DNA of 64,000 bases from Nocardia iowensis. Lineage in GTDB: Bacteria > Actinomycetota > Actinomycetes > Mycobacteriales > Mycobacteriaceae. The position numbers were made by a program, and so were the translations under genes. A model generated the notes under the pieces. The model searched no databases. It was given only the letters and a program-made list of their open reading frames with translations, and had not been told where the DNA came from. The DNA lies in assembly GCF_019222765.1 (NCBI RefSeq), contig NZ_CP078145.1, positions 4,340,001-4,404,000 on the forward strand. Reading direction: 5' to 3'. Shown here one piece after another: positions 16,902 through 26,364 of the stretch (within the stretch, counting starts at the first letter, position 1; every line of letters begins with the position of its first letter).

Positions 16902-17840
16902 TCAGCCGTGGAACAGCCGACCCAGCTCGACGAGCCAGGGGACCGCGACGGCCATCGTCGGAACCACGAGAATGGCGGCCGAGCCGAGGTAGGCGGCACC
17001 GGCGATGCGCACGTCACTGGTGCGTCCGCTGAGTCGCTGAATGCGAATCAGGGTGGTCGGCCCGCCCGCCGCGAGCGCACCCTGGGGTGCGGTGGACTTG
17101 GAACAGGCGACGAGGGCGCGAGCCAGCGGTTTCGGGCCGGTCACCTTCACCGCGGAATCGTCGGCGAGCAGTTCGATGAGCAGTTTCACCGAACCGAGCG
17201 CGGCCTTGCTGCGCACCACCCGCGGAAATGCTTCGTGTACCGCGGTGAACGCCTCGAGCACTAGATCGTGTCTGGCCCGCAGGTGCGAGCGCTCGTGGCT
17301 GACGATCGCGGTGATCTCGGCGTCGGCCAGGTTGGTCAGCGTGCCCTCGCTGATCACCACGCGCTGCCGCAGGCCGGGCAGGCAATAGGCGATCGGCTCG
17401 GTCGCGGCCAGCACCCGGATATCGGAGGCGCGGCGGCGCGGACCGCTCTGATCGAGCAGGTCGACCAGCATCCGGTGGCGGGCGCGGCGCCTGCGCGTGT
17501 GCACGCCGACCCGGACGATCGCGTAGATCAGCCGCGCACCGACCAGCAGCGTCAGCGCGAACACGAAGACATAGGCCAGCCACAGCGGCAGCCCGAGCGC
17601 GTCGATCTCGCGGGTGGGTGCGGTGGTCGGCCTGCCGTCGGGTCCGGGCACGAGCAGCTCGGCGGCGATGGCCAGACCGGAGCCGAACGCGCTGAGCACG
17701 GCGGCCAGCGCGATCGCCTGCCAGAGCACGAGCGCGGCGCGGGGCGTCCGGTATGTCCAGGTCGCCCGGCTGAGCAGGGCCGGAGCAGGCCCCGCGAGAA
17801 GCAATGCGAGTCCGGCGAATACCGGCGCGGTTGCGTTCAT
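16902..17840 (-). CDS. M56 family (BlaR1-like) membrane metallopeptidase
   Basis: 312 residues. Two N-terminal helices (ALVLWQAIALAAVLSAFGSG and WLAYVFVFALTLLVGARL) precede the peptidase domain, which carries the zinc motif SHERSHLRARHD (H-E-x-x-H). A last helix lies near the C-terminus. There is no beta-lactam sensor domain, unlike BlaR1. It sits 40 bases after BlaI and probably relieves BlaI repression by proteolysis. The pair corresponds to Rv1845c-Rv1846c by gene order from memory. Confidence 0.88.
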   Translation of the reverse strand: MNATAPVFAGLALLLAGPAPALLSRATWTYRTPRAALVLWQAIALAAVLSAFGSGLAIAAELLVPGPDGRPTTAPTREIDALGLPLWLAYVFVFALTLLVGARLIYAIVRVGVHTRRRRARHRMLVDLLDQSGPRRRASDIRVLAATEPIAYCLPGLRQRVVISEGTLTNLADAEITAIVSHERSHLRARHDLVLEAFTAVHEAFPRVVRSKAALGSVKLLIELLADDSAVKVTGPKPLARALVACSKSTAPQGALAAGGPTTLIRIQRLSGRTSDVRIAGAAYLGSAAILVVPTMAVAVPWLVELGRLFHG

Positions 17841-17880: not shown

Positions 17881-18270
17881 CTACTGCGGTGGCGGTGTGT
17901 CCTCGGATGCTTCGAGCTTAGCGAGTGCCTCCCGCAGAGCGGCAGCCTCATCCTTGCCGACCTGTTCCACGAAGTGCACCAGCGCGGCGGCGCGGCTGCC
18001 CGCCGCGTCGGCCTGTTGCAGCGCGTCCACCATCAGGCTCGCGACGAGTTCGTCGCGAGTGTGCACCGGCGCGTAACGATGAGCACGGTCGTCGCGCTGC
18101 TGGACCACGAGATTCTTCTTCGCGAGTCGTTGCAGCACCGTCATCACCGTGGTGTACGCGAGCTCGCGGCGTGCGGCCAATGCCTCGTGCACCTGCCGGA
18201 CTGTCTGCGGTTCGTCGGTCGACCACAACTGGTCCATGACCGCTTTCTCGGGTTCACCAAGTCCTGCCAT
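17881..18270 (-). CDS. blaI: BlaI/MecI family transcriptional repressor
   Basis: 129 residues. A winged helix at about 8-75 (GEPEKAVMDQLWSTDEPQTV, then LAYTTVMTVLQRLAKKNLVV) is followed by the dimerisation helices. It is the expected partner of the M56 peptidase downstream. In M. tuberculosis BlaI controls blaC and respiratory genes; here no beta-lactamase gene is in view. A TACTACA-TGTCGTA dyad just upstream indicates autoregulation. Confidence 0.9.
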   Translation of the reverse strand: MAGLGEPEKAVMDQLWSTDEPQTVRQVHEALAARRELAYTTVMTVLQRLAKKNLVVQQRDDRAHRYAPVHTRDELVASLMVDALQQADAAGSRAAALVHFVEQVGKDEAAALREALAKLEASEDTPPPQ

Positions 18271-18348: not shown

Positions 18349-19218
18349 TCATACGGGCGCGGATTCGGGCATGACGGGCCCGCCTGCCTTGCCGAGCACA
18401 TGGCGGGTGCCGATCGGCACGACCATCGGTCGGCCGGAGACCGGATCCGGCAAGACCGAGGCGTCCAGGTCGAAAACTTCGCGCAGCAGGGCGACGTCGA
18501 TGATGTCGGCTGGGCGGCCCTGCGCGACGATCCGGCCGTCGCGCATGACGATCAGCTCGTCGCTGTAGCGAATCGCGAGATTGAGGTCGTGCAGCACCAT
18601 CACCACGGTGCGGCCGAGCTCGGCGTGCAGCCGATCGACCAGGTCGAGCACGTCCACCGCGTGCGCGAGGTCGAGGTAGGTGGTCGGCTCGTCGAGCAGC
18701 AAGATGTCGGTGCCCTGCGCCAATGCCATGGAAATCCAAGCCCGTTGGCGCTGGCCGCCGGAGAGCTCGTCGAGGGCGCGGTCGGCGAGTTCGGCGATGC
18801 CGGTCTGCGCGAGCGCGGTCATCACCTCGGCTTCGTCGGTGGCCGACCACTGCTGGAACCACGACTGATGCGGATGACGCCCGCGCGCAACGAGATCGGC
18901 GACGGTGAGGCCTTCGGGCGCGACCGGTGACTGCGGCAGCATGCCGATCACCCTGGCCACGTCCTTGGTCTTCATCGTCGAAATGGCCTTGCCGTCCAAC
19001 AACACTCGGCCGTGCTGCGGGCGCAGCAGTCGGCCGAGCGAGCGCAGCAGCGTGGATTTGCCACAGCCGTTCGGGCCGATCACCGTGGTGATCACGCCGG
19101 GAGCGATATCGAGGGAGAGGCCGTCGATGATCACCCGGTCGCCGTAGGCGAGCTTGACGTCGTCGGCGGCAAGCCGGGTCAGCGCCCGGTCCGCGCTGGT
19201 CGCAGCGTCTGTGGTCAT
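18349..19218 (-). CDS. iron-siderophore ABC transporter, ATP-binding subunit
   Basis: 289 residues. Walker A GPNGCGKST, signature LSGGQRQRAWISMALA, Walker B ILLLDEPTTYLDLAH, and H-loop VLHDLNLA. It belongs to the FepC/FecE group that imports ferric siderophores, haem or B12. It is the last gene of the three-gene unit, overlapping the permease by ATGA. ATG 19218 is the start; frames extend further upstream only inside the permease. No substrate-binding protein is encoded in the unit. Confidence 0.92.
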   Translation of the reverse strand: MTTDAATSADRALTRLAADDVKLAYGDRVIIDGLSLDIAPGVITTVIGPNGCGKSTLLRSLGRLLRPQHGRVLLDGKAISTMKTKDVARVIGMLPQSPVAPEGLTVADLVARGRHPHQSWFQQWSATDEAEVMTALAQTGIAELADRALDELSGGQRQRAWISMALAQGTDILLLDEPTTYLDLAHAVDVLDLVDRLHAELGRTVVMVLHDLNLAIRYSDELIVMRDGRIVAQGRPADIIDVALLREVFDLDASVLPDPVSGRPMVVPIGTRHVLGKAGGPVMPESAPV

Positions 19219-20300
19219 GACAGCGTCGCCTTCCGATTCATTCGCACGAGCAGGTACAGCAGGAACGGCCCGCCGAAGGCGGCGGTCACGATGCCCACCG
19301 GCAGGTCGGCCGGAAACACCGAGCGGGACGCCACATCCGCGCCGACCACCAGGATGGCACCGATGAGCGCCGACCCGATCAGCGGTTCGCCGGGAGTGCG
19401 CAGCACGCGGCGCGCGATCTGCGGCGCGGCCAGCGCCACGAAGCTCACCGGCCCGACGACCGCGGTCGCCACCGAGGAGCCGACCACCGCCGCGCCGATC
19501 AGGATCGCCTGCTGGGTCTGGATCCGGACACCGAGCGAGCGGGTGGTGTCGGCGCCGAGCCGAAGCGCGGCCAGCGTGCGGGCCGAGCCGAGCGCGACCA
19601 CCACCACGACCGCGAGCGCGAATGCCGCGGGGAGCAAACCGGATCGGTCGGCGTTGTTGAGAGATCCGTTGAGCCACAACTGCGCTCGCTGGGCGTCTTG
19701 CAGGCTGGCGCGGGTGAGCAGCCAGCTGATGCCGGACAGCAGCAGCGCGTTCATGCCGACGCCGATCAACACCAGGCGCATCCCGGTGACGCCCCGATCG
19801 CCGGTCGGGCTGCGCCCCCAGGCCAGCAGATAAATCGCCGCGGCGGTGAGCAGACCGCCCGCCAGCGCGGCCAGCGGTCCGCCGAGGGTGGCGGCCAGGC
19901 CGCTGCCGCCGCCGATCACCAGCACCGTGACGGCGCCGAAGCTCGCGCCGGCGGTGATGCCGAGCATGTCCGGCGCGGCAAGGGGGTTGTGCAGGATGGA
20001 CTGGGTGATCGCGCCCGCGAGCCCGAGTGCCGCGCCGACCACCAACGCGGTGAGCGCCCGCGGCAGCCGGGAGTCGAGCACGATGAACCGCTGGGCTCTG
20101 GTTCCGCCGCCGGTCAAGACGTCGATCACCCGGCCGAGGGGGATATGTGATTCGCCAGTGGCGATGTCGAGGCAGAACAGCAGGAGCATCGCCGCGGCCA
20201 ACGCGGCAACCACCAGCACCATGATCGGGCGCAGCACCAGCGAGACGGGCCCGACCCGCAGCGCGGGCCGAACGCTCTCGGTCTTCAGCGACAGTGTCAC
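19215..20300 (-). CDS. FecCD-family siderophore permease, second subunit
   Basis: 361 residues with a GTG start. Nine or ten membrane helices and the family core ALGLAGAITQSILHNPLAAP, which contacts the ATPase and translocation path. Later SVATAVVGPVSFVALAAPQI is also typical. It overlaps the first permease by GTGA and the ATPase by ATGA, so all three are translationally coupled. It forms a heterodimer with the first permease. Confidence 0.92.
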   Translation of the reverse strand: MTLSLKTESVRPALRVGPVSLVLRPIMVLVVAALAAAMLLLFCLDIATGESHIPLGRVIDVLTGGGTRAQRFIVLDSRLPRALTALVVGAALGLAGAITQSILHNPLAAPDMLGITAGASFGAVTVLVIGGGSGLAATLGGPLAALAGGLLTAAAIYLLAWGRSPTGDRGVTGMRLVLIGVGMNALLLSGISWLLTRASLQDAQRAQLWLNGSLNNADRSGLLPAAFALAVVVVVALGSARTLAALRLGADTTRSLGVRIQTQQAILIGAAVVGSSVATAVVGPVSFVALAAPQIARRVLRTPGEPLIGSALIGAILVVGADVASRSVFPADLPVGIVTAAFGGPFLLYLLVRMNRKATLS

Positions 20301-21343
20301 AGGCTCACCAACTTCCGACGCCGCACGAACGCGATGAAGAACGGGGCGCCGACCGCGGCCAGCATGACACCCACCTGGAGCTCGCCGGGCCGGGCTACCA
20401 CCCGGCCGATGATGTCGGCGACCAGCAGCAACAAACCGCCGATCACCCCGGAATACGGGATGAGCCAGCGATAGTCCGGCCCGGTGATGACCCGGGCGAG
20501 GTGCGGCACCACGAGCCCGAGAAACGCGATCGGACCGACCGCCGCCGTCGCCGCACCGGACAGCAGCACGATCGCGGCCAGCCCGAGAGCGCGACTGCGG
20601 CCGATGTTCACTCCGAGCCCGCGCGCGACCTCGTCGCCGAGACTGAGCAGGTTCAACCCGGGCGAGGCCACCAGTGCCAGCAGCACCCCGAACGCCAGGA
20701 ATGGCAGCACCTGCCACAACACCGCGGCGTCGCGGCCGGCCACCGAGCCGACGACCCAGAACCGGTAGGTGTCCAGCGCCGTGGGATCAAGGAGCACAAC
20801 GGCATTTGTCATCGCCTGCAAAAACGCGGTGACTGCCGCGCCGGCCAGCACGAGACTCAGCGGGCTTGCCTTGCCGCCGCCGACCGCCGACGCCCCGAAC
20901 ACCACCAGCCCGGCGATCAACGCGCCCGCGAAGGCGAACCAGATGTATTGCTCCGGCGAGGTGAACCCGAACAGGTAGATGCTCAGTGCCGCGAGAAAGG
21001 CGGCACCGGCGTTCAAGCCGAGCAGTCCGGCGTCGGCGAGTGGATTGCGCGTGTAGCCCTGGATCAGCGCGCCCGCGATGCCCAGCGCCAGTCCGGTGAC
21101 CAGCGCCAGTGCCGTGCGAGGCAGCCGGAGTCCACGTACGATTTCCTCGGCGGTGGAACCGGCCGGACAGCTGAACGGTCCACCCGGGCAGGTGACCGCG
21201 TTGTGCACGGCGTCGTAAACCGTGCCCGGCGAGAGTGACCTGGTGCCGATCGCGATGCTGGCGAGCACGGTGAGCAGGAGTAGAGCGGTCAGGACGACGA
21301 GCCCGGAAAGACGCCGCCGCCGTACGGTGCCAAGCGTGGTCAC
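20297..21343 (-). CDS. FecCD-family siderophore permease, first subunit
   Basis: 348 residues, GTG start. The core ALGIAGALIQGYTRNPLADA and AAVGPIAFLGLVVPHLARVI place it with FecCD permeases such as FepD. First gene of the leftward iron-uptake operon. An IdeR-type iron box lies about 50-65 bases upstream and is shared with the divergent gene at 21451. Repressed by iron, presumably. The ferric complex carried is unknown. Confidence 0.92.
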   Translation of the reverse strand: MTTLGTVRRRRLSGLVVLTALLLLTVLASIAIGTRSLSPGTVYDAVHNAVTCPGGPFSCPAGSTAEEIVRGLRLPRTALALVTGLALGIAGALIQGYTRNPLADAGLLGLNAGAAFLAALSIYLFGFTSPEQYIWFAFAGALIAGLVVFGASAVGGGKASPLSLVLAGAAVTAFLQAMTNAVVLLDPTALDTYRFWVVGSVAGRDAAVLWQVLPFLAFGVLLALVASPGLNLLSLGDEVARGLGVNIGRSRALGLAAIVLLSGAATAAVGPIAFLGLVVPHLARVITGPDYRWLIPYSGVIGGLLLLVADIIGRVVARPGELQVGVMLAAVGAPFFIAFVRRRKLVSL

Positions 21344-21389: not shown

Positions 21390-21408
21390 TCTGGTAAGCC
21401 TAACCTAT
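21390..21408. promoter_or_regulatory. IdeR/DtxR iron box, divergent siderophore genes
   Basis: Read on the minus strand the 19-mer is ATAGGTTAGGCTTACCAGA, matching the DtxR/IdeR consensus TTAGGTTAGGCTAACCTAA at 15 of 19 positions. It sits between the divergent permease and the gene at 21451, placed to shut both when iron is plentiful. Confidence 0.75.
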
Positions 21409-21450: not shown

Positions 21451-22161
21451 ATGCCCGAGCTCATGACCACCTGCCCGCCACGCCATACGCAGATGGCGTT
21501 CGAGCGCACGTGTGACAGGTTGCGCGCGTTGCAACCTGAGCATCCGCGTGTGTATGCGGTGGCGGCGATGGTCGAGCAGGGCAAACGTCGCTGGTGGCGG
21601 CTGGCCGACGGGGTGCGCGAGGGGCGCATCGAACTGATGTACCGCAGGCATGCGGCGGAGATGATCCGCGCCGATGTCGCGGCGGAGGTGGTGGCGACCG
21701 CGCTGATCCACGCGGTGGTCGGCCGAGTGGTCGCCCTGCTGGTGGCCGAGGGGCGGGCCTGGGATCCCGGTCTGGAGAACCTGTGGATCCACACCGACAA
21801 CGACGGCGGCATCGACTGGGCCGGGCTGGGGGACACCACGATCCGGGTGGTCGATGGTGATCCGCTGGCCGGCGAGTCCGGTGCGGTGACCCTGCCGTGC
21901 GAGGGGGCGATGTATGTCTGGCTGGCGCACCGCTGCGAGCCCTCGCTGACGCTGATCCAGTCGAGCATGGCCCGCTACTCGGGTCTGAGCGCGCGCCGAT
22001 TCTGGTTGCTCGTCGGTGAATCCATCGCGGGCGCTTCGACATACGTGCCGGAGCTCGCGCGCACCGACGCGGTAGTGGGGACGCGCCGCGGTCAAGGGAT
22101 GTTGGCAGCATTGGAGCGGCGCGGATTGCCGGTTCGGCGCACGACGGGCTTGCTTAGTTAG
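21451..22161 (+). CDS. iron-regulated hypothetical protein
   Basis: 236 residues; ATG with a strong GAGGAGG ribosome-binding site. Soluble, no signal peptide. Blocks seen: RLADGVREGRIELMYRRHA, AATALIHAVVGRVVALLVAE-like helices, and ENLWIHTDNDGGIDWAGLGD. The divergent siderophore importer and shared iron box imply a job in ferric-siderophore use, perhaps like FhuF-type reductases. The C-terminal Cys cluster of FhuF is absent, so I do not assign that. The second IdeR box overlaps its stop codon. Confidence 0.7.
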   Translation: MPELMTTCPPRHTQMAFERTCDRLRALQPEHPRVYAVAAMVEQGKRRWWRLADGVREGRIELMYRRHAAEMIRADVAAEVVATALIHAVVGRVVALLVAEGRAWDPGLENLWIHTDNDGGIDWAGLGDTTIRVVDGDPLAGESGAVTLPCEGAMYVWLAHRCEPSLTLIQSSMARYSGLSARRFWLLVGESIAGASTYVPELARTDAVVGTRRGQGMLAALERRGLPVRRTTGLLS

Positions 22162-22179
22162 GTAAGCCTGACCTATACT
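22150..22179 (+). promoter_or_regulatory. iron-controlled promoter with IdeR box
   Basis: TTGCTT (22150-22155), an 18-base spacer, then TATACT (22174-22179) make a good sigma-A-type promoter. The IdeR box TTAGGTAAGCCTGACCTAT (22158-22176) covers the spacer and -10, matching the consensus at 16 of 19 in reverse. It follows the gene at 21451 but faces only a short non-coding stretch and a hairpin, so it appears to drive a small RNA. Confidence 0.7.
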
Positions 22180-22185
22180 CGGAAC

Positions 22186-22285
22186 CGGCGTACGGATTGG
22201 TCGAGAGTCCCGAGGGCTGCGGTGACCCCTGATCCATTGCCGCGATGGGCTCCACCGTTGACGCGGTGGAGCCCATCGCTCTGTG
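22186..22285 (+). ncRNA. candidate iron-responsive sRNA, MrsI-like
   Basis: Start is taken about 7 bases after the TATACT -10. The end is the hairpin at 22243-22278: a perfect 15-bp stem (CGATGGGCTCCACCG with CGGTGGAGCCCATCG) and a 6-base loop TTGACG. No open frame fits. The M. tuberculosis sRNA MrsI (ncRv11846) is IdeR-controlled and, as its name indicates, lies by Rv1846c (blaI), before Rv1847. Here the candidate likewise lies between blaI and the Rv1847-like thioesterase gene. MrsI represses non-essential iron proteins when iron is scarce. Ends are approximate. Confidence 0.6.
22243..22278 (+). terminator. sRNA terminator / functional hairpin
   Basis: Perfect 15-base-pair stem with 6-base loop, followed by CTCTGTG. 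It ends the short transcript started at about 22186. The loop could also act as a seed. Beyond it, 22286-22583 shows no gene. Confidence 0.75.
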
Positions 22286-22583
22286 CTGGGTGACCACTCT
22301 GCGCTGTGTGACCTATCTCGCTATTCATTTTCTGGCGTGGCGCGTTTACCTGGGTTTAACGTGACCGCGACACGGATGCGAAATCCCCTGACCCCCTGGG
22401 GTATTCGTCCCATTCCGCGCAGACCGGCGTGTCGACCACCGCCGCGTAGCCGATCGGCTCGGTGCCCGTGTCGCCGACCATCGGTGCGCCCGCGCGCACC
22501 GCGTCCGAGTCGCCGATGCGCGTTTGCCTTGTCCGGCAGACGTTCTCACGGTCGCTCACGTTGTGCCAAGGAAGTGGTGCCGG

Positions 22584-23405
22584 GTGCTCGCCGAATCGTC
22601 CCGTATCCGTTCGTTCGCCGCAGTGCTGTCCGCAGCCGCGCTGCTACTCGTCCCCGCCTGTGGTGGCGATCAGACGAAGCCGCGCAGCCAGGTCGATCCG
22701 CCCATGGGCGCGCACGCCGCGCCGCACTGGGACTACGACGCCGAAGGTCCCGACCACTGGGCCGAGCTCGACCAGGAGTTCGTGACCTGTAAGAGCGGGC
22801 ACGAACAATCGCCGATCGATCTGCCGGGCCACACCCGGCTGGACCCGGTCGAGCACATCACCCTCGACTACGGCACGGTGCCGACGTTGCGGCTGGTCAA
22901 CACTGGGCACGCCGTGCAGGCAAATCTTCAGGCGGGCAATGGAAATCGCCTCGTCGCCGAGGGAGTGCCGCACGAGCTCACCCAGTTCCACTTCCACCTG
23001 CCGAGCGAACACACCGTCGACGGCGCGGGCACCACCATGGAATTGCACCTGGTGCACAAGAGCAGTGCGGGCAAGACCGCCGTGCTCGGCGTGCTGATGC
23101 AGGCGACCGACGGTCCATCGGCATTCGACTCGATGCTCACGGCCCCACCGGAAGTGACCGATGCCGAAACCACCGTCGAAGGTGCCGTGGACCTGCGCAC
23201 GCTGCTGCCCGCCGATCTAGACCAATTCCGCTACCAGGGTTCGCTCACCACACCGCCGTGCAGCGAGGGCGTCTCGTGGACCGTGCTCGAGCATCCGGTC
23301 CCGGTCGCGACCGCCGACGCGGACCGATACCGAATCCTGTTCGCGCACAGCAACCGTCCGATCCAGCCGCTGAACGGACGATCGGTCACCCTGGCAGGCG
23401 GGTGA
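22584..23405 (+). CDS. alpha-type carbonic anhydrase lipoprotein
   Basis: 273 residues from GTG 22584. The signal peptide ends in the lipobox LVPACGG, so it should be lipid-anchored outside the membrane. Zinc ligands are visible in QFHFHLPSEH and the later MELHLVHKS. EQSPIDL and the end SLTTPPCSEGVSWTVLEHPV are hallmarks of the alpha class. It hydrates CO2 at the cell surface. It stands before the thioesterase and urease genes; bicarbonate made by urea breakdown is one possible link. Confidence 0.9.
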   Translation: MLAESSRIRSFAAVLSAAALLLVPACGGDQTKPRSQVDPPMGAHAAPHWDYDAEGPDHWAELDQEFVTCKSGHEQSPIDLPGHTRLDPVEHITLDYGTVPTLRLVNTGHAVQANLQAGNGNRLVAEGVPHELTQFHFHLPSEHTVDGAGTTMELHLVHKSSAGKTAVLGVLMQATDGPSAFDSMLTAPPEVTDAETTVEGAVDLRTLLPADLDQFRYQGSLTTPPCSEGVSWTVLEHPVPVATADADRYRILFAHSNRPIQPLNGRSVTLAGG

Positions 23406-23448
23406 GCCAGCGGTAATCGGCCGCGGGCGCTGTGCAAAAGTGGACCGC

Positions 23449-23895
23449 ATGACAGAGCAGGAGACCCAGACGGCCGCGTGGCTGGCGAACATCACGCCGG
23501 AGTTGATGACCAAGGCCAGCGAAGGCACGTTCACCGACCTGATCGGCCTGCACTACACCGAGGTAAGCCCGGAGCGGGTGCGCGCCGAGTGGACCGTCAA
23601 GCCGCACCTCTACCAGCCGGCGGGCATCCAGAACGGTGGCGTGTACTGCACCGTCATCGAGACGCTCGCCAGCGTCGGCGGCGGCGTCTGGTACGGCGGC
23701 CGCGGCACGGTCGTCGGAGTGAACAACAACACCGACTTCCTGCGCGCGGTTCGCGAGGGCACCCTCACCGGCGAGGCCATCCCGGTGCACCGCGGCCGGT
23801 TGCAGCAGCTGTGGCAGGTGGTGATCACCGACGAGCAGGACCGACTGGTGGCCCGCGGCCAGGTGCGGCTGCAGAACCTGCCTGCCGAGGCGTGA
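23449..23895 (+). CDS. PaaI-type hotdog thioesterase (Rv1847-like)
   Basis: 148 residues. Hotdog core YQPAGIQNGGVYCTVIETLA carries the HxGG-like substrate helix (here Q-N-G-G), followed by GTVVGVNNNTDFLRAVREG. From memory it matches Rv1847, the gene between blaI/MrsI and ureA in M. tuberculosis. Acyl-CoA substrate is unknown; menaquinone-pathway thioesterases (MenI) belong to the same family. ATG 23449 was preferred to GTG 23440. Confidence 0.85.
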   Translation: MTEQETQTAAWLANITPELMTKASEGTFTDLIGLHYTEVSPERVRAEWTVKPHLYQPAGIQNGGVYCTVIETLASVGGGVWYGGRGTVVGVNNNTDFLRAVREGTLTGEAIPVHRGRLQQLWQVVITDEQDRLVARGQVRLQNLPAEA

Positions 23896-23976: not shown

Positions 23977-24279
23977 ATGCGACTGTCGCCGCATGAGCAG
24001 GAACGGCTGCTGCTGAGCTACGCGGCCGAGCTGGCCCGGCGCAGGCAGGCCCGTGGGCTCAAGTTGAACCACCCGGAGGCCGTCGCGCTGATCACCGACC
24101 ACGTGCTCGAGGGCGCGCGGGACGGTCGCTCGGTCGCCGAGCTGATGTCGTCCGGCCGAACGGTTCTCACGCGTTCCGACGTGATGGCGGGCGTGCCGGA
24201 GATGATTCACGACGTCCAGGTCGAGGCCACCTTTCCGGACGGCACCAAGCTGGTGACCGTCCACCATCCGATCGGCTAG
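23977..24279 (+). CDS. ureA: urease gamma subunit
   Basis: 100 residues, the normal length. [20 protein letters not shown] at the start and [20 protein letters not shown] are the family signature. Good GAGGAG ribosome-binding site. First gene of ureA-ureB-ureC. It packs with the beta and alpha subunits in the (abc)3 urease of the cytosol. Confidence 0.97.
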
Positions 24280-24650: not shown

Positions 24651-26364
24651 ACTGAGCCGCGCCCGTTATGCCGAACTGTTCGGGCCGACGACCGGTGACC
24701 GAATTCGCCTGGCCGACACCGATCTGCTGATCGAGATCACCGAAGACCGCAGCGGCGGTCCGGGTCTCGCGGGTGACGAGGCGGTCTTCGGCGGCGGCAA
24801 GGTGCTGCGCGAATCCATGGGGCAGGCCCGCGCCACCCGGGCCGATGGCACCCCGGACACCGTGATCACCGGCGTGGTCATCGTCGACCACTGGGGAATC
24901 ATCAAGGCCGACGTCGGAATTCGGGACGGCCGCATTTGCGCCATCGGCAAGGCGGGTAACCCGGACACGATGGACGGGGTGCACCCCGACCTGGTGGTCG
25001 GCCCGTCCACCGAGATCATCGCGGGCAACGGGCGCATCCTCACCGCGGGCGCCATCGACTGCCACGTGCACTTCATCTGCCCGCAGCTGATGGACGAGGC
25101 GCTCGGCGGCGGCATCACCACCCTGATCGGCGGCGGCACCGGCCCCGCCGAGGGCAGCAAGGCGACCACCGTCACGCCCGGCTCCTGGCACCTGGCCCGG
25201 ATGTTCGAGGCCACCGACGGCTGGCCGCTGAACATCGTGCTGCTCGGCAAGGGCAACACGGTCAGCGCTGAGTCCATGTGGGAGCAATTGCGCGGCGGCG
25301 CATCGGGTTTCAAGCTGCACGAGGACTGGGGTTCCACCCCGGCCGCGATCGACGCCTGCCTCACCGTCGCCGACGCGGCGGGCGTGCAGGTGGCGCTGCA
25401 CTCGGACACGTTGAACGAGGCCGGTTTCGTCGAGGACACCCTCGGCGCCATCGCGGGCCGAGGCATCCACGCCTATCACACCGAGGGCGCGGGCGGCGGG
25501 CACGCGCCCGACATCATCACGGTCGCAGCGCATCTCAACGTGCTGCCAAGCTCGACCAACCCGACCCGACCGCACACCGTCAACACCCTCGACGAGCACC
25601 TGGACATGCTCATGGTGTGCCACCACCTCAGCGCGTCCATCCCGGAGGATCTCGCGTTCGCCGAGAGCCGGATTCGCCCGTCCACCATTGCCGCCGAGGA
25701 CCTGCTGCACGACCTCGGCGCGATCTCGATGATCGGCAGCGACTCCCAGGCGATGGGCCGCATCGGCGAGGTGGTCATGCGCACCTGGCAGACCGCGCAC
25801 GTGATGAAGCGCCGCCGTGGCGCGCTGCCCGGTGACGGCGCCGCCGACAACGCCCGCGTCCAGCGCTACATCGCGAAATACACCATCTGCCCCGCCGTGG
25901 CGCACGGCCTCGACCACGAGATCGGTTCCGTGGCCGTCGGCAAGCTCGCCGACCTGGTGCTCTGGGAGCCCGCCTTCTTCGGCGTCCGCCCGCACGCCGT
26001 GCTCAAGGGCGGTGCCATCGCCTGGGCGGCGATGGGCGATGCCAACGCGTCCATCCCGACGCCGCAGCCGGTGCTGCCGCGGCCGATGTTCGGCGCGGCA
26101 CCGCTCGTCGCGGCGGCCACCTCGTTGCACTTCGTCTCCGAGCAAGCCATCGACGACGGCCTCGCCGACCGGCTGCGGATCAACCGAAAACTGGCCCCTG
26201 TCAAGAACGTTCGGGATCGCAAGAAGACCGACATGCCCCATAACGACGCGATGCCGCGCATCGAAGTCGACCCGGACACCTTTACCGTCCGCATCGATGG
26301 CGAGGTCTGGACCGAGCAACCGGCCACCGAACTGCCGATGGCACAGCGCTATTTCCTGTTCTGA
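24643..26364 (+). CDS. ureC: urease alpha (catalytic) subunit
   Basis: 573 residues. Nickel ligands in [10 protein letters not shown], the carbamylated lysine in [12 protein letters not shown], and the catalytic-flap His in [13 protein letters not shown] are all present, so the enzyme should be active if matured. ATG 24643 gives the usual [19 protein letters not shown] start. The next gene is on the other strand 3 bases away, so ureF, ureG and ureD do not follow as they do in M. tuberculosis. They must be elsewhere. Confidence 0.97.

Follow-up and report, generated by a model that had tools for sequence, protein, structure and literature searches.

In enterobacteria, the Fur-controlled small RNA RyhB is thought to silence iron-using proteins. 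An excerpt of PMC9410917 describes IsrR of Staphylococcus aureus as an iron-repressed small RNA with an iron-sparing response. In actinobacteria, the closest described RNA is MrsI. Passages of two reviews (PMC8628891 and PMC11188477) present it as a mycobacterial RNA of ~100 nt that silences bfrA, hypF and fprA. In M. tuberculosis, according to them, it is encoded at 2096766-2096867, with blaI and Rv1847 on its two sides; an IdeR site is placed close to its start, a terminator is predicted, and a seed of 6-8 nt and an apical loop of 7 nt are given. Its induction in low iron is described in a portion of PMC7029489. As for its strand, PMC8628891 gives plus, which is followed here; a table of PMC7029489 has ncRv11846Ac with descending coordinates. 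Among the papers listed in literature searches, no title or abstract opening points to an MrsI-type RNA in Rhodococcus, Gordonia or Nocardia, and the core sequence led to a single unrelated paper on human cells.

We analyzed a window of 64,000 nucleotides from the genome of Nocardia iowensis, an 8.95-Mb single contig, and coordinates of this locus are those of the window. Positions 22150-22285 hold an IdeR box in promoter-like sequence and a conserved RNA, which is, with a probability of roughly 0.8, an orthologue of MrsI; iron scarcity is predicted to switch it on, and its loop AGGGCUG to mediate the silencing of mRNAs. Here IdeR with bound iron would cover the spacer and the -10 element, so that RNA polymerase would be blocked. 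Without iron, IdeR would let go and an RNA of ~100 nt would be made. Its loop would then pair with mRNAs of dispensable iron proteins close to their ribosome-binding sites, lowering their translation and sparing iron. That the RNA is transcribed, that IdeR binds the box, that transcripts end at the hairpin and that the loop pairs to mRNA is inferred from sequence comparison.

The predicted promoter (22150-22179, plus strand) was read from the sequence as a -35 element TTGCTT at 22150-22155, an 18-base spacer and a -10 element TATACT at 22174-22179. A preliminary description of this DNA had placed a consensus-like promoter here. The place stands, but 'consensus-like' is too strong for the -35 element, because TTGCTT matches at only 3 of 6 positions and a sigma-70 consensus scan of the region called no promoter. 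The same description had an IdeR box lying across the spacer and the -10 element, which was confirmed at 22158-22176. The box, TTAGGTAAGCCTGACCTAT, extends over the larger part of the spacer into the -10 element, and scores 17/19 rather than the earlier 16/19 against TWAGGTWAGSCTWACCTWA, which we take to be the 19-bp IdeR/DtxR consensus. With these two mismatches allowed, 100 shuffles gave 0 matches. The -35 element overlaps the end of an FhuF-like gene, and the box overlaps the stop codon of that gene (22159-22161). An IdeR-type regulator is plausible because the N. iowensis genome has two DtxR-family matches of 78 and 76 bits, plus weaker ones. A second IdeR box (16/19) lies at 21390-21408 between the divergent fepD-like and fhuF-like genes, and is predicted to control both.

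The small RNA is predicted at 22186-22285 on the plus strand (~100 nt), its start being set by the spacing from the -10 element and its end by the hairpin. None of 200 shuffles of it folds as well (z -5.1). Three plus-strand open reading frames of at least 20 codons start inside it: one has 23 codons, another has 39 and continues beyond the hairpin, and the third, of 169 codons, begins at 22283 within the last bases. The 5′ domain (22194-22235, plus strand) consists of an outer stem GGAUUG/UGAUCC, pairing 22194-22199 with 22230-22235, and an inner stem, pairing 22207-22212 with 22220-22226, around the 7-nt apical loop AGGGCUG (22213-22219), which is nearly invariant among relatives and is proposed as the seed. 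The loop is more than 80% unpaired in 137 of 188 loci, with a median of 94% over the 188.

Between the promoter and the hairpin are ~65 bases, as had been described. The hairpin itself, described as a perfect one of 15 bp, is present but longer, with 17 bp followed by TCTGTGCT, and its fold at 22242-22279 on the plus strand is that of a predicted intrinsic terminator. A stricter terminator scan of the region called none, the T tail being weak. Elsewhere the terminator stem has at least 10 pairs in 183/188 loci, with at least 3 T among the next 8 bases in 153/188, and compensatory pairs occur in it within Nocardia. Among the Rfam 15 families, none matched the region at the gathering level, and the only matches were of microRNAs to the hairpin, far below the cut-off. 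A family model could thus be proposed to Rfam, as no Rfam family matched the RNA.

Conservation of the stem-loop and its loop in relatives, whose absence the preliminary description had named as a refutation, is extensive. A 151-base stretch matches 144 of 148 Nocardia genomes. In the family, a covariance model for the RNA only, built from 27 Nocardia RNAs with the promoter excluded, matches 162 of 241 genomes, which belong to 20 of the 31 genera searched, Nocardia included; one match is listed per matching genome. The model also matches 132 of 158 genomes of genus g29, one genome twice; from its similarity to named loci, g29 is presumed to be Mycobacterium. The exact core pattern finds 73 loci in records named Rhodococcus, Prescottella, Rhodococcoides and Mycobacterium/Mycolicibacterium, some of these records being metagenome bins. 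The model gives no match in 79 of the 241 family genomes, among which are genera with genomes of ~2 Mb, and none in 26 of the 158 g29 genomes. When 11 g29 genomes without a match were rerun with looser filters, one (G426) became clear and another (G431) was weak with the core present. Among single-contig g29 genomes, G382, G387, G428, G432, G434 and G469 have no clear match, possibly due to loss or divergence.

One Nocardia genome (G129) has two matches ~17 kb apart (C64:172012-172116 and 188992-189115), which could be a duplicated copy. Another genome (G048), with its match at position 4404068, is presumably that of N. brasiliensis. In a part of an RNA-seq study of N. brasiliensis (PMC5543724), no differentially expressed RNA appears near that position.

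The loop is almost invariant in these genomes. Among the 46 best model matches, the loop region reads GAGGGCUGC in 45 and GUGGGCUGC in 1, where the model had been built from sequences carrying the AGGGCUG loop. The pair next to the closing G-C pair of the loop is U-A in most genera, C-G in Nocardia and A-U in a few sequences. Covariation was counted on 50 RNAs, which we chose from 147 distinct ones and aligned by sequence alone. For the 12 named pairs, 98.3% of cells are paired, as compared with 93.6% in column shuffles and 32-45% in slid structures. Double changes occupy 38 cells versus 11.4 in shuffles, 15 of the 38 being at a pair required during locus selection and 19 at another pair, and four pairs vary on both sides; related species are not independent in these counts. 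The selection script demanded the loop and a standard pair beside it, and dropped none of the 209 loci given, which were best or chosen matches (40 of the 162 family genomes, and the best 30 of the 132 g29 matches).

The IdeR box accompanies the RNA throughout. A box of at least 14/19 is found in the 105 bases upstream of the loop in 187 of 187 distinct loci. Of 3740 control windows taken from these loci, 74 have one, some of the 74 probably being the second box. The 187 remain from the 209 loci with the core after 22 with too little flank or duplicates were left out. Among loci not selected on the promoter, the box is present in 43/43 family model matches, 71/71 core-pattern loci (from the 73) and 30/30 g29 model matches. 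Of 207 loci whose upstream flank is 140 nt or longer, 188 have TTG immediately 5′ of the box and 189 have TAnnnT across its end, the groups being summed and some loci occurring in more than one group. A stray palindromic box standing by chance beside a hairpin, for which no supporting point was found, is refuted by the conservation, by the box statistics (0 in 100 shuffles and 187/187 loci) and by the covariation, and has practically no probability left.

Along the plus strand of the window, the order is blaR and blaI (minus), a FepC/FepG/FepD-type transporter (minus), an FhuF-like gene (plus), the RNA, carbonic anhydrase, a 4HBT thioesterase and urease. The upstream side begins with a BlaR-type M56/M48 peptidase of Rv1845c type (16902-17840, minus; PF05569 and PF01435) and a BlaI-type repressor of Rv1846c type (17881-18270, minus; PF03965, 98.7 bits). 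These are followed by the FepC-like ABC ATPase of a siderophore transporter (18349-19149, minus; PF00005) and its FecCD-type permeases, FepG-like (19215-20273, minus; PF01032, 262 bits) and FepD-like (20297-21343, minus; PF01032, 302 bits). The FhuF-like gene, which ends inside the small-RNA promoter, is an open reading frame at 21451-22161 (plus) with a start chosen by us, and its Pfam FhuF score of 20.8 bits is below the cut-off of 25.2. The downstream side, all on the plus strand, has the carbonic anhydrase between the small RNA and the thioesterase (22524-23405; PF00194, 134.7 bits), the thioesterase of Rv1847 type (23440-23895; PF03061) and the urease gamma subunit, with which the urease operon starts (23977-24279; PF00547). 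Further on, an Rfam match to 5_ureB_sRNA (24810-25099, minus; 48.5 bits with a cut-off of 40) is antisense to the start of ureC, and may merely reflect the conserved urease coding sequence.

The preliminary description had blaI and Rv1847 as neighbors on either side of the RNA. Both are present, but strict adjacency fails, as blaI is 3.9 kb upstream and the carbonic anhydrase comes before the thioesterase. That siderophore genes lie between blaI and the RNA is true in N. iowensis and in Rhodococcus-type genomes, whereas their having been 'inserted' beside the RNA is a reading.

On the upstream side, neighborhoods were compared in other genera at the 93 loci whose left flank reaches 1.5 kb, by the next upstream gene among those tested. 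This gene was BlaI in 14 loci, BlaI with one FhuF-like gene between in another 14, FepD-like in 64 (60 of them with FhuF), and FhuF only in 1. Of 9 transporter-type loci whose left flank is 6.5 kb or longer, 4 have BlaI beyond the FepD-like transporter, as do L151 and N. iowensis. On the downstream side, 103 other-genus loci had a right flank of 1 kb or more. The thioesterase follows the RNA in 100 of them, 95 times within 700 bases and 5 times at a distance of 1.2-2.7 kb; in the other 3 it was not found. The fetched other-genus loci cover 16 of the 20 matching genera, and the thioesterase lies downstream of the RNA in one or more loci of every one of these 16. Within Nocardia, 32 other loci with ~1.5 kb of flank on each side have the thioesterase downstream in 28 cases and the carbonic anhydrase in 15; FhuF lies upstream in 25 and FepD in 23. 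Two of these 32 (L024 and L030) have BlaI, FhuF and the small RNA without the transporter, an arrangement otherwise seen in Mycobacterium and useful for dating the siderophore genes.

It could be that there is no separate small RNA, and that the conserved sequence is just the 3′ untranslated region of the FhuF-like gene with its terminator. The promoter does overlap the FhuF-like stop codon, the hairpin would also end the FhuF mRNA, and the gene is upstream in the 25 of 32 other Nocardia loci counted above. However, the RNA with its own IdeR box occurs without FhuF, with BlaI as the next upstream gene in 14 of 93 loci and behind fepD-like genes alone in 4 more, and 7 of the 32 Nocardia loci have no FhuF-like match in ~1.5 kb. 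We therefore hold this explanation to be improbable, although the RNA could additionally be released from the FhuF mRNA.

Slightly less probable still is that the RNA acts in cis, as a leader or attenuator of the carbonic anhydrase, thioesterase or urease gene downstream, and not in trans. It would agree with the RNA being upstream of, and on the same strand as, the downstream genes in N. iowensis and nearly all loci. On the other hand, the RNA is constant while the downstream gene varies, being carbonic anhydrase in N. iowensis and the 15 of 32 Nocardia loci, and mostly thioesterase elsewhere. Moreover, the terminator-like hairpin directly follows the conserved domain, and bfrA leaders elsewhere carry the loop complement, as described below. 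That the place of the RNA is kept while its flanking genes vary counts against a mere FhuF 3′ end as well as against a leader of a single gene.

An independent small RNA of the MrsI type thus remains our preferred reading. The earlier suggestion that the RNA and its place are conserved outside mycobacteria is supported, since the RNA, the IdeR box and the thioesterase neighborhood are found in Mycobacterium and many other genera. With matching RNAs in 20 of 31 genera, mostly in the same neighborhood, MrsI is likely to be older and wider than mycobacteria.

Targets were sought through the loop complement, CAGCCCU. A bfrA match at E 1e-45 was obtained in 30 of the 42 genomes examined. Of these 30 bfrA leaders, 11 carry CAGCCCU within 60 bases of the start, and the other 19 lack it. 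It ranks top among its 210 letter orders in the leaders (mean of all 210, 0.31), and the next order, AGCCCUC, which overlaps it, occurs in 8. By genus, it is in 5 of 18 leaders of g29, in 6 of 6 of g11, three of which (L379-L381) are identical, and in 0 of 6 elsewhere. An overlapping 7-mer, CCAGCCC, is slightly more common (12/30), partly via a separate CAGCCCA stretch. A smaller earlier set had CAGCCCU in 4 of 8 g29 bfrA leaders, from genomes that partly overlap the 30. In one locus (L270), the match in the bfrA leader extends to 12 contiguous pairs with the RNA of the same genome. Because bfrA leaders carry CAGCCCU above other letter orders, the AGGGCUG loop is likely the seed, and bfrA is likely used as the same target in at least one other genus. 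The comparison itself backs the seed, by a constant loop, covarying stems and the complement in target leaders.

In Nocardia, no bfrA match at E 1e-45 was found in either of the two genomes tested, N. iowensis and G073. Because this match is missing, the N. iowensis targets likely differ from the mycobacterial ones. No exact seed complement precedes the two adjacent ferritin genes of N. iowensis, only exact 7-mers having been sought for the second gene. Shortly before the start codons of Nocardia ferritin genes (L258, L262, L263, L264 and L267), IdeR-box-like sequences are seen by eye, as if ferritin were controlled by IdeR directly.

In a scan of the N. iowensis genome, CAGCCCU is not enriched near start codons, with 23 places versus 24 for the reversed pattern. 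Scans of three genomes (55 versus 26 reversed controls) and of four genomes (88 versus 86) gave no clear excess. The surroundings were read for part of the 55 and 88 places, and none of these pointed to an iron protein as a conserved target. A Rieske oxygenase (G089, L313) was considered as a target and rejected, the exact site being in 0 of 9 other orthologue leaders; one of them (L347) has a near match, GCAGCCC. Two N. iowensis genes have a perfect loop complement before a plausible start and by eye are no recognizable iron proteins, namely a 271-aa alpha/beta-hydrolase-like lipoprotein (L312) and an epimerase-like gene (L415, G000:C1:3995200-3997400).

It could be that the Nocardia RNA is MrsI by descent and yet no longer spares iron, regulating other mRNAs or binding a protein instead. 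The missing bfrA match in the two Nocardia genomes tested and the lack of a conserved target in the scans would fit this, as would the fold of the N. iowensis copy. When folded alone, this copy prefers another 5′ structure by 10 kcal/mol over the consensus fold, with the loop 30% unpaired. However, the loop and the IdeR box are equally conserved in Nocardia and elsewhere, and the target search spanned few genomes, one seed and few start types. We consider such a change of function unlikely, though less so than the alternatives above, and retain an iron-sparing MrsI orthologue as the better account.

More broadly, MrsI may be an old small RNA of the whole actinobacterial family with a frozen loop, whose promoter, place and 7-nt seed are fixed while its targets are exchanged. 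Nocardia-type genomes, which may lack bfrA, would then use other mRNAs. A portion of the family, among it small genomes possibly of Corynebacterium, has no detectable copy. This broader picture is tentative, and we give it slightly less than even odds. If it is true, the part of the family without a copy would need another iron-sparing route. It also raises the question of how a seed stays fixed when the main target is absent. If the RNA is in most genera of the family, it would be a trans-acting actinobacterial small RNA with a known type of regulator and a seed conserved across genera, and MrsI could be studied in laboratory strains that are harmless, Rhodococcus for instance. The value of the finding lies in how widely MrsI-type RNAs occur, in the frozen loop and in the lack of a match to the main target in the Nocardia genomes tested.

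Among known systems, RyhB shares control by a metal repressor with the RNA of N. iowensis, but its repressor is Fur and its sequence and structure are different. IsrR is likewise iron-repressed and iron-sparing, but belongs to another lineage. Both are likened by description, and for RyhB shared descent is not implied. MrsI (ncRv11846 of M. tuberculosis, also in M. smegmatis) is far closer, the likeness to the M. tuberculosis RNA resting on its published description and on homologues in named Mycobacterium species. The two have in common the length of ~100 nt, the IdeR box at the promoter, the terminator-like hairpin, the 7-nt apical loop and the neighborhood of blaI, Rv1847 and urease, and bfrA leaders in some Mycobacterium-type genomes carry the loop complement. 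On the other hand, in N. iowensis four siderophore-type genes separate blaI from the RNA, a carbonic anhydrase gene follows it, no bfrA match was found, and the pair beside the closing pair of the loop is C-G instead of U-A.
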